Shown piece by piece: positions 1,677-15,899 of a stretch of DNA of 36,927 bases. Each line of letters starts with the position of its first letter. The first letter of the stretch is position 1. The DNA is taken from positions 82,212 through 119,138 of the forward strand of contig CAIUCZ010000030.1 of the NCBI GenBank assembly GCA_903897785.1, read 5' to 3'. Source of the DNA: Candidatus Falkowiibacteriota bacterium (GTDB taxonomy: Bacteria; Patescibacteriota; Patescibacteriia; Patescibacteriales; Patescibacteriaceae). The notes beneath the pieces were generated by a model. The model saw nothing but the letters and a program-made list of their open reading frames with translations, was not told the DNA's origin and did not search any database. The position numbers and the translations under genes were made by a program.

Positions 1677-1725
1677 TGTGGGAGAGAATAATAATTAAAA
1701 ATTAAAGATTCTCGTAAATACCACG
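1677..1725 (+). promoter_or_regulatory. Ribosomal protein L1 binding-site mimic in the rplK-rplA gap
   Basis: The RNA can fold as GUGG (1678-1681) with CCAC (1721-1724), an asymmetric internal loop (GA on one side, GUAAAUA on the other), then GAGAAU (1684-1689) with AUUCUC (1708-1713). GUGGGAG on the 5' side and AAAUACCAC on the 3' side match, from memory, the strands at the base of the L1 stalk of 23S rRNA. L1 is known to repress its own operon by binding such mimics in mRNA. Placement 9 nt before the rplA start suggests direct repression of L1 translation. Confidence 0.7.
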
Positions 1726-1733
1726 AAAAATTT

Positions 1734-2444
1734 ATGACCGAAAAAAAAGCCAGAAAGGTTGTCAAAACAACCAAAAAAGTTGCTAAGCCTTTAGCGGCTG
1801 ACTATGTCAAAACTCAGGCTTATCCGATTACGCAAGCGATTGAGCTGGCCAAGAAAAACAGCCGCAGCAAATTTGACGCTTCGATTGAAGTTCATTTTCG
1901 TTTGGGGGTTAACCCAAAAAAAGGTGATCAACAAGTGCGTGGCGCGGTTTCTTTGCCGCATGGCACAGGCAAAACCATTAAAGTTGCCGCCTTTGTCTCT
2001 CCGGAAAATGAAGCCAAGGTCAAAGCGGCCGGCGCGGACTTGGTCGGCGGTCAAGATTTGATTGACGAAATCAAAAAAACCGAAAAAACCGACTTTCAAG
2101 TCGCGGTCGCCGAACCGATGATGATGAGACAGCTGGCCGCGATTGCCAAAATCTTGGGTACGCGCGGTTTGATGCCGTCGCCCAAGAACGACACGGTCAC
2201 CATGAACCCGGCCGAAGCCGTCGCGCAGCTGAAAAAAGGCAAAGTCAGTTTTAAAAACGATGACACGGCCAATTTGCACGTCGCCATTGGCAAAGTCTCT
2301 TTTGCTGATGCCGCCTTGCTGGAGAACTATCAGACCTTGTTGGACGCGGTCAAGAAAGCCAAACCGTCCACGGCCAAAGGCAGCTATCTGAAAAATATTT
2401 CCGTTTGCTCGACCATGGGTCCGGGCGTGAAAGTTGGATTTTAG
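1734..2444 (+). CDS. rplA: 50S ribosomal protein L1
   Basis: Builds the mobile L1 stalk that helps deacylated tRNA leave the E site, and acts as a translational repressor of its own mRNA. The protein is 236 residues with a lysine-rich N-terminus. Family features include SIEVHFRLGVNPKKGDQQVR, the GTRGLMPSPK segment near residue 143, and the C-terminal KGSYLKNISVCSTMGPGVKV. It is the last gene of the series and is followed by a strong terminator. rplJ and rplL, which follow in many bacteria, are absent here. Confidence 0.97.
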   Translation: MTEKKARKVVKTTKKVAKPLAADYVKTQAYPITQAIELAKKNSRSKFDASIEVHFRLGVNPKKGDQQVRGAVSLPHGTGKTIKVAAFVSPENEAKVKAAGADLVGGQDLIDEIKKTEKTDFQVAVAEPMMMRQLAAIAKILGTRGLMPSPKNDTVTMNPAEAVAQLKKGKVSFKNDDTANLHVAIGKVSFADAALLENYQTLLDAVKKAKPSTAKGSYLKNISVCSTMGPGVKVGF

Positions 2445-4295: not shown

Positions 4296-4366
4296 ATAAA
4301 GTTAGAAGTCGATAAAGAATTTCTTTATGAACTTTATAACTTTATGAACTTTCAACTACCGGTTAT

Positions 4367-5947
4367 ATGGAAAAATACCAAGTCATTATCGGCATGGAGA
4401 TTCATGCCGAGCTGGCCACCAAATCAAAAATGTTCTGCGCTTGCGCCAACCCGACCTTGGGCGCCCGGCCAAACAGCACGGTTTGTCCGATTTGCCTCGG
4501 GCATCCGGGCATGTTGCCGCTACCCAACGCTCAAGCGATTAGCTGGACAGTTCTTTTAGGTTTGGCGTTGCATTGCAAGATTAACCAGCTGTCAAAGTTT
4601 GATCGCAAGAATTATTTTTATCCCGATCTGCCCAAAGGCTATCAAATTTCGCAATATGATTTACCGCTGTGCTATGACGGCGAATTAAAAATCGAAGGCC
4701 TGCCCGGCGAAGAGACGAGCAATGTCGTGAGAGTGACGCGTATTCACTTAGAAGAAGATACAGGCAAATTGTCGCATCCGACCGGAAAGCCTCATTCGCT
4801 GGTGGACTTTAATCGCGCCGGTGCGCCGCTGGTGGAGTTGGTGACCGAGCCGGTGATAAAATCAGCCGGAGAGGCAAAATTATTTTGCCAGACCTATCAA
4901 CAAATTTTACGCTATCTGCAAATTTCTGACGCCGACATGGAAAAGGGCCAGATGCGCTGTGAAGCCAATGTCAGCTTGCAAGAGACAGGCAAGTTTTTTT
5001 ATGAATTCGGCCGCGGCCTTGTGCCTAAAGATGATTATGTTTTAAACAATAAAGTGGAGGTAAAAAATATCAACTCATTCAAAGCGGTCCAAAATGCAAT
5101 TTTGTTTGAGATTGAACGGCAGACAAAAATATTGAACAAAGGCCAAACGGTGTTGGCCGAAACGCGCGGCTGGAATGAAGAGAAAAATCAAACCATTAGC
5201 CAACGCGTCAAAGAAACGTCGGCTGATTATCGTTATTTTCCCGAACCGGATATTCCGCCCATCAGTTTGACCGAGTTGGAAATCGATAACTTGCGCGCCG
5301 CCCTGCCCGAACTGCCGGCCGCCAAGCTGGCGCGGTTTAAACATGAATACGGTTTGTCGGATTACGACGCCGAACTTTTGACGGTTGATTTGGCGTTGGC
5401 CGATTACAGCGAAGCAGTCATTTCCGAATTGCGCGCCTGGGTGGACGCCAGCGAGGATACTTGGGAACGGCAAAATATAAAATTATGTAAACTGGTTGCC
5501 AATTGGATAGTCAATGAATTGCTAAAACATTTAAACGCCGCCGTTGGGACGCGCGGCGATGTAGAGACGCATTGCAATGCGTCTCTACGACAACAAATTA
5601 AAATTAAGCCCGAACAGCTGGCGCATTTGTTGATTTTACTTTATCAAGATAAAATCAATTCCTCGGCCGGACAAACAATTTTTGCCGAAATGTACGAGTC
5701 GGGCAAAGATCCGGAAGAGATTATGCAAGACTTAAAGCTGGAGCAGTTGGACAACACTGATGATTTAATAAAGCTGATCGAAGAAGTGGCCATTGCCAAT
5801 CCGGCGCAAGCCGAACAATATCGCAACGGCAAAGACAGTTTGTTGCAGTTTTTTGTCGGCAAGATGATGGCCAAAACCGGCGGGAAAGCTAATCCCAAGA
5901 CATTGCAAGAACTTATACCGCAAGTCGTAAAAGTTAAAAGTTCATAA
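4367..5947 (+). CDS. gatB: Asp-tRNA(Asn)/Glu-tRNA(Gln) amidotransferase subunit B
   Basis: Activates Glu-tRNA(Gln) or Asp-tRNA(Asn) for amidation, with GatA supplying ammonia and GatC as the third subunit. Signatures are IGMEIHAELATKSKMFC, the zinc-site cysteines in CACANP and CPICLGHPG, DRKNYFYPDLPKGYQISQYD, and DFNRAGAPLVELVTEP. The C-terminal helical and YqeY-like tail follows. At 526 residues it is longer than the usual 475-480. Part of the excess is a linker around residues 394-410 that contains an in-frame 28-bp palindrome. The end (KVKSS and stop) is encoded by an intergenic repeat. gatA and gatC are not in the window. Confidence 0.96.
   Translation: MEKYQVIIGMEIHAELATKSKMFCACANPTLGARPNSTVCPICLGHPGMLPLPNAQAISWTVLLGLALHCKINQLSKFDRKNYFYPDLPKGYQISQYDLPLCYDGELKIEGLPGEETSNVVRVTRIHLEEDTGKLSHPTGKPHSLVDFNRAGAPLVELVTEPVIKSAGEAKLFCQTYQQILRYLQISDADMEKGQMRCEANVSLQETGKFFYEFGRGLVPKDDYVLNNKVEVKNINSFKAVQNAILFEIERQTKILNKGQTVLAETRGWNEEKNQTISQRVKETSADYRYFPEPDIPPISLTELEIDNLRAALPELPAAKLARFKHEYGLSDYDAELLTVDLALADYSEAVISELRAWVDASEDTWERQNIKLCKLVANWIVNELLKHLNAAVGTRGDVETHCNASLRQQIKIKPEQLAHLLILLYQDKINSSAGQTIFAEMYESGKDPEEIMQDLKLEQLDNTDDLIKLIEEVAIANPAQAEQYRNGKDSLLQFFVGKMMAKTGGKANPKTLQELIPQVVKVKSS
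5561..5588. repeat. Perfect 28-bp palindrome inside gatB
   Basis: GTAGAGACGCATTG is followed directly by its reverse complement, giving a perfect palindrome. It is read in frame as roughly VETHCNASL in a linker of the GatB tail region. Its look is that of the small mobile palindromes found dispersed in many bacterial genomes, but here it lies in a coding region. Confidence 0.85.
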
Positions 5948-5984
5948 AGTTATAAAGTGCGATACTTTAAGAACTTTATGAACT
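5939..5984. repeat. Long hairpin overlapping the gatB stop codon
   Basis: AGTTCATAAAGTT (5939-5951) pairs perfectly with AACTTTATGAACT (5972-5984), with further pairing inside. The stop codon TAA of gatB is part of the left arm. Related hairpins occur at 14633-14679 and 15795-15863. There is no T-tract, so 3'-end protection or weak termination are possible roles. Confidence 0.75.
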
Positions 5985-14574: not shown

Positions 14575-14632
14575 AAGGTTAAAATTAGTTTTATATATTT
14601 TTTTATTCTATTTGAATAGTTAAAAGTTCATA

Positions 14633-14716
14633 AAGTTCATAAAGTTATAAAGCCCGACACTTTATAACTTTATGAACTTCCCGCCAGTAACGCTTGAGCG
14701 TAGCTCTGCGGGCTGG
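14633..14716. repeat. 20-bp perfect hairpin and GC-rich core in the hsp20-dnaK gap
   Basis: AAGTTCATAAAGTTATAAAG (14633-14652) pairs without mismatch with its complement at 14660-14679 around CCCGACA. A GC-rich segment with CCCGCCAG and CTGCGGGCTGG (about 14680-14716) follows and is a diverged form of the 36-bp core at 15208 and 15864. Confidence 0.85.
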
Positions 14717-15779: not shown

Positions 15780-15794
15780 ATGTTTTAGTTCATA

Positions 15795-15899
15795 AAGTTC
15801 TTAAAGTTATAGAGTTATAAAGTAAGTGCTCCCACTTTATGAACTTTATAACTTTAAGAACTTCCTGCCCGAAATGCTGCGCATAGCGTTGCAGGCGGG
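15795..15899. repeat. Composite hairpin repeat in the hrcA-grpE gap
   Basis: AAGTTCTTAAAGTTAT (from 15795) pairs with ATAACTTTAAGAACTT (to 15863), with an inner ATAAAGT/ACTTTAT helix. The 36-bp core at 15864-15899 follows immediately and ends at the hrcA stop codon. Confidence 0.85.

Follow-up and report, generated by a model that had tools for sequence, protein, structure and literature searches.

A predicted autogenous operator for ribosomal protein L1 directly before rplA in a member of the Patescibacteria

The gap between rplK and rplA in the stretch of DNA analysed here (36,927 nucleotides, hereafter the window) holds an RNA hairpin, at positions 1676-1726 of the plus strand, that is very probably (roughly 0.9) an autogenous operator for ribosomal protein L1, through which the protein would block initiation at its own gene. 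This reading draws on the fold, on evolutionary constraint, on likeness to the L1 site of 23S rRNA and on the tie of the element to rplA, together with the L1 autoregulation that is established in other bacteria, where the mRNA mimics the 23S site (PMC10931766). In the proposed mechanism, L1 exceeding the supply of new 23S rRNA would bind the hairpin; as the structure reaches to within 9 nt of the rplA AUG, the L1-bound hairpin would cover the ribosome-loading region, initiation on rplA would be blocked and L1 synthesis would fall. New 23S rRNA would then draw L1 off the hairpin, thus relieving the block.

The gene rplA (1734-2444, plus strand), which would encode the repressor and be the controlled gene at the same time, was identified by its sequence similarity to L1 proteins of solved structure (E 6e-66). 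Its upstream neighbour is rplK, for ribosomal protein L11 (1240-1665, plus strand), an open reading frame whose similar proteins precede rplA in relatives, and the gene order is secE-nusG-rplK-rplA, with secE and nusG named by sequence and place. The C-terminal motif STMGPGVKV of L1, which we take to be part of the RNA-binding surface, is retained as in B. subtilis L1. At the other end of the protein, a lysine-rich N-terminal extension of about 25 residues (window 1734-1810) precedes the region similar to B. subtilis L1, and longer extensions occur in some relatives. A Shine-Dalgarno-like motif is present at only 4 of the 31 open reading frames of the window, and there is none at rplA. Judged by L1, the closest named relatives of this uncultured bacterium are Candidatus Falkowbacteria, presumably of the class ABY1 of Patescibacteria.

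The coding strand of the gap reads UU-GUGG-GA-GAGAAU-loop-AUUCUC-GUAAAUA-CCAC-GA-AAAAUUU-AUG. The outer helix consists of a 5' strand, UU-GUGG (1676-1681), whose conserved part is GUGG, and of a 3' strand, CCAC-GA (1721-1726), which is recovered by the fold and conserved in relatives; GUGG (1678-1681) pairs with CCAC (1721-1724), and the helix may be extended by U1677-G1725 and U1676-A1726. It opens into an asymmetric internal loop with GA (G1682-A1683) on the 5' side, conserved and written with the same letters in the 23S L1 stalk, and GUAAAUA (1714-1720) on the 3' side, where the first G and the last A are the conserved letters. Above the loop, the arms GAGAAU (1684-1689) and AUUCUC (1708-1713) form a perfect apical helix of 6 bp, whose pairs covary in relatives. 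Nine bases without a Shine-Dalgarno sequence (1725-1733) separate CCAC from the start codon. The minimum-free-energy fold of the gap is this same structure, with the outer helix, the internal loop of 2 nt against 7 nt and the 6-bp apical helix, at -10.9 kcal/mol and with a z of -2.5 against dinucleotide shuffles. An earlier sequence-only reading had described GUGGGAG and a facing strand around an asymmetric loop closed by a perfect 6-bp helix, 9 nt before the L1 start; direct reading and the fold confirm it, with CCAC ending at 1724 and the rplA ATG at 1734. In form, an irregular stem-loop supported by covariation and opened by an asymmetric internal loop, and in place, on the rplK-rplA mRNA between the two genes, the element corresponds to an L1 operator. 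The pattern GTGGGA-N10-40-ACCAC occurs once in the window, against 0.10 expected, and twice in the genome; with a covariance model, too, the window yields a single site. The second genomic copy of the pattern (C23:429-462), antisense within a glycosyltransferase-like open reading frame, was set aside as chance. A lone fold is weak evidence, and it is conservation and covariation in relatives that lift the predicted hairpin above chance.

Within the order, a match to rplA was found in 91 of 98 related genomes, and the DNA upstream of it was read for 89 of these. The plain pattern GTGGGA...CCAC lies between rplK and rplA in 75 loci out of 90 (a total in which one place figures twice), with a spacing of 4-13 nt to the rplA ATG, and the covariance model adds five loci (L055, L072, L076, L078 and L079), so that about 79 of the 89 loci carry the hairpin before rplA. 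GUGGGA is kept across relatives, as read from alignment and pattern matches, the invariance of its GA in the loci of the order being partly a matter of selection because GA belonged to the search pattern. The sites of L034 and L089 look degenerate by eye. No site was found in eight of the 89 rplA-bearing loci (L012, L017, L044, L045, L056, L068, L081 and L087), and the element can thus be lost. In L017, L044, L045, L068 (family f20), L081 and L087 the hairpin is gone and rplA still stands beside or near rplK; short direct repeats (AAAGTCCATAAAGTCC, AAAATCCATAAAATCC) occupy the gap in place of the hairpin in L044 and L045.

In five loci (L008, L009, L039, L042 and L057) the apical loop holds long AT-rich palindromes, with GTGGGAG and CCAC intact, and other long AT-rich inserts are found there in five more (L011, L049, L061, L075 and L077), as though insertions into the loop were tolerated. 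Several of the loop palindromes resemble a genome-wide repeat, AACTTTATAACTTTATGAACTTT, which is found at 99 places of the window's genome when up to 3 mismatches are allowed, compared with 0 for a reversed control, and six times in the window (within 4330-4352, 5937-5959, 14632-14680 and 15794-15864). Its copies mostly form inverted pairs 25-50 nt apart, making it a high-copy palindromic intergenic repeat.

Covariation supports the stems of the hairpin. Among 62 distinct sites, the apical stem directly after GTGGGA has a mean length of 5.2 bp, compared with 3.0 in shuffled sequences and 3.1 when the 5' halves are exchanged between species. In an alignment of 55 sequences, 89% of the cells are paired, the covariation score reaches 0.39, compared with 0.106 for shuffles, and 113 cells are altered on both sides against 38 in the shuffles; pairing drops to 40% when the partner is shifted by one column. 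Compensatory changes are found in all six apical pairs. The outer GUGG/CCAC helix is invariant in the aligned set because the pattern demanded it; among loci collected across the phylum with the covariance model, GCGG/CCGC in L218, L225 and L242 represents a compensatory change of the outer helix. Thus, the two strands are kept in relatives and both the apical and the outer pairs covary, which is the outcome that the sequence-only reading had called for. Two unpaired letters are also strongly conserved, with G after the stem in 52 of 62 sites and A before CCAC in 62 of 62, the modal length of the loop strand being 7; such conservation is as would be expected of contacts with a protein.

The distribution of the element across the phylum follows that of the gene for L1. 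A bare pattern search proved too unspecific at this scale, with similar counts in the controls, and searches anchored on the protein or run with the covariance model took its place. The sample comprised 117 Patescibacteria genomes, 101 with a Ribosomal_L1 match and 16 without. Under strict filters the covariance model gave 36 matches in the 117 genomes, one per genome, all 36 upstream of rplA and on the same strand, and none in the 16 genomes without rplA. With fuller filters, applied to 30 of these genomes, the element was found in 14 of 15 genomes with rplA and in 0 of 15 without it (Fisher p 2e-7, a value that overstates the number of independent events because the genomes are related). In these samples the element therefore occurs where L1 is encoded and in no genome without L1. 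The copy matched in genome G146 stands before rplK, where the rplK-rplA unit begins. In those Patescibacteria and Firmicutes in which Shine-Dalgarno sequences are used, CCAC abuts the AAGGAG of rplA.

These data bear on two rival readings. A hairpin arising by chance, or left over from a palindromic repeat and devoid of function, might be suspected in a genome rich in AT-rich inverted repeats, one of them present at 99 places, especially as the z of the single fold is only -2.5; however, position and letters are conserved across the phylum and the stems undergo compensatory change, which makes the probability of this reading negligible. The choice of sequences by pattern does not rescue it, since the apical arms were not fixed by the pattern and the outer-helix changes came from the model search. 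The location in an intergenic gap would also suit a transcription terminator or attenuator that sets the ratio of the rplK and rplA products. This is very improbable, as CCAC is followed by GAAAAAUUUAUG with no U run, unlike an intrinsic terminator, while the conserved letters lie in an unpaired loop and match the L1 site, and the element tracks the presence of rplA.

A closer rival accepts an L1 site and has it act mainly on the whole rplK-rplA message, through stability or retro-regulation of rplK, rather than on rplA initiation alone. In its favour, rplK lies directly upstream in most loci, and operators of ribosomal proteins can control an entire operon, as in the case of uS8 (PMC10931766). 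The arrangement of the loci speaks against it. The hairpin stands directly before rplA in nine loci in which no adjacent rplK was found (L129, L131, L132, L135-L137, L141, L145 and L156, from Magasanikbacteria and others), in three in which rplK is about 2 kb off (L138, L147 and L154, likewise from Magasanikbacteria and others) and in three relatives in which other sequence intervenes (L055, L072 and L079). Because the hairpin accompanies rplA even if rplK is located elsewhere or other genes lie between the two, the element belongs to rplA; in the order, no more than about a dozen bases ever separate it from the start of that gene. Control exerted mainly on the whole message is for these reasons unlikely. 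Moreover, the covariance model gave no match upstream of rplK, either in the order's 89 loci or in the window. A pattern match upstream of rplK in L002 (the same place as L103) has no operator-like stem and no model match, and was discarded. Two sites, one before rplK and one before rplA, do occur in Chloroflexi (L164 and L172-L175) and in some Patescibacteria (L220 and L226). All in all, rplA itself, rather than rplK, is most likely the target of the switch in this lineage, as gene arrangement and site distribution suggest; the proposal of the sequence-only reading that L1 could be controlled separately from L11 is thus supported by the lack of an rplK site in the order and by a hairpin that follows rplA without rplK.

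The comparison with rRNA relied on the 23S genes of relatives, as that of the window's own organism is absent from its genome bin. The L1 stalk of these relatives has the form GGUGGGAG-hairpin-GUGAGAUACCACC, and in ten of them, four from the same family, it reads GGUGGGAG-CC-UUCG-GG-C-GCCGGUGAGAUA-CCACC or close variants. The mRNA site and the stalk (H76-H78) of the ten relatives have in common GUGGGAG opposite UACCAC, set around an asymmetric loop that is capped by a short hairpin. As the relatives' stalk shows the same strands, the mimicry holds, and the match to 23S rRNA that the sequence-only reading had proposed as a check was obtained for the L1 stalk of the lineage, its own 23S being absent. 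The two sites also differ: the 3' loop strand of the stalk has 12 nt and ends in GUGAGAUA, whereas that of the mRNA usually has 7 nt, and a G-C pair beneath GUGG is a feature of the rRNA, unlike the mRNA. The covariance model built on the mRNA gives the rRNA site no score, for which the difference of 12 and 7 nt may be the reason. When folded in isolation the 23S stalk did not yield the native helix, so the comparison with rRNA rests on sequence correspondence. The loss of H78 that has been reported for ABY1 (PMC12641178) explains why the rRNA site is so small, being itself one short hairpin.

One relative, G058, presents two peculiarities of its own. Its 23S gene (G058:C1:281758-286308; L100 and L101) gives two overlapping matches to the model, as would be expected if an insertion broke it up; insertions in rRNA genes are known for the group of this relative. 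In addition, 43 kb from this 23S gene, an isolated segment similar to the 23S L1 stalk (L102, about 1501-1589 on the minus strand; G058:C1:329206-329294) matches positions 2126-2215 of the RF02541 model with an E of 1.5e-14. Its stalk differs (GGCGGGAG...AAGAUACCGUCC), and it lies amid short repeats, with two normal tRNA genes about 1 kb off.

It is possible, though we consider it speculative, that in ABY1, whose 23S L1 stalk is reduced nearly to the mRNA hairpin after the loss of H78, L1 must discriminate between rRNA and mRNA by means other than H78, for example by the loop strand of 12 or 7 nt, and that the feedback is confined to rplA, whose start lacks a Shine-Dalgarno sequence. Since both binding sites are similar small hairpins in ABY1, what makes L1 prefer rRNA to mRNA is directly testable, and the loss of H78 in the same class represents a natural experiment on the preference of L1 for rRNA over its mRNA copy. 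If the element works as proposed, a classic feedback loop of ribosomal proteins would have outlived genome reduction in Patescibacteria; in this order it would be tied to rplA rather than to the L11-L1 unit, the element being absent from the sampled genomes without L1. No match of the window to Rfam 15 reaches the gathering score, with nothing relevant up to an E of 5 around the site, and the covariance model would thus allow annotation of an element without an Rfam match.

The lineage appears to be new for an L1 operator, as a literature search returned no paper describing one in Patescibacteria, which is weak evidence of absence. The arrangement itself is already known, since uL1 sites are described upstream of rplK in Proteobacteria and upstream of rplA in Actinobacteria and Cyanobacteria, with Firmicutes having both (PMC10931766). 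The sequence-only reading had treated placement between rplK and rplA as a trait of the lineage; this part does not stand, given its occurrence in Actinobacteria, Cyanobacteria and Firmicutes (PMC10931766) and, among the loci analysed here, in Chloroflexi. The closest counterpart is the uL1 operator of the rplK-rplA operon in Actinobacteria and Cyanobacteria, the same irregular bulged stem-loop mimicking the 23S site before rplA (PMC10931766). Compared with the known uL1 operators, the element described here is found in Patescibacteria, with no second site before rplK in the order and no Shine-Dalgarno sequence at rplA, and it follows rplA also where rplK is not adjacent. The operator of the E. 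coli type shares with it the protein and the principle of rRNA mimicry (PMC10931766); in E. coli the operator precedes rplK and reportedly reaches rplA by translational coupling (a primary study cited in PMC10931766), whereas the hairpin of this lineage lies directly before rplA.
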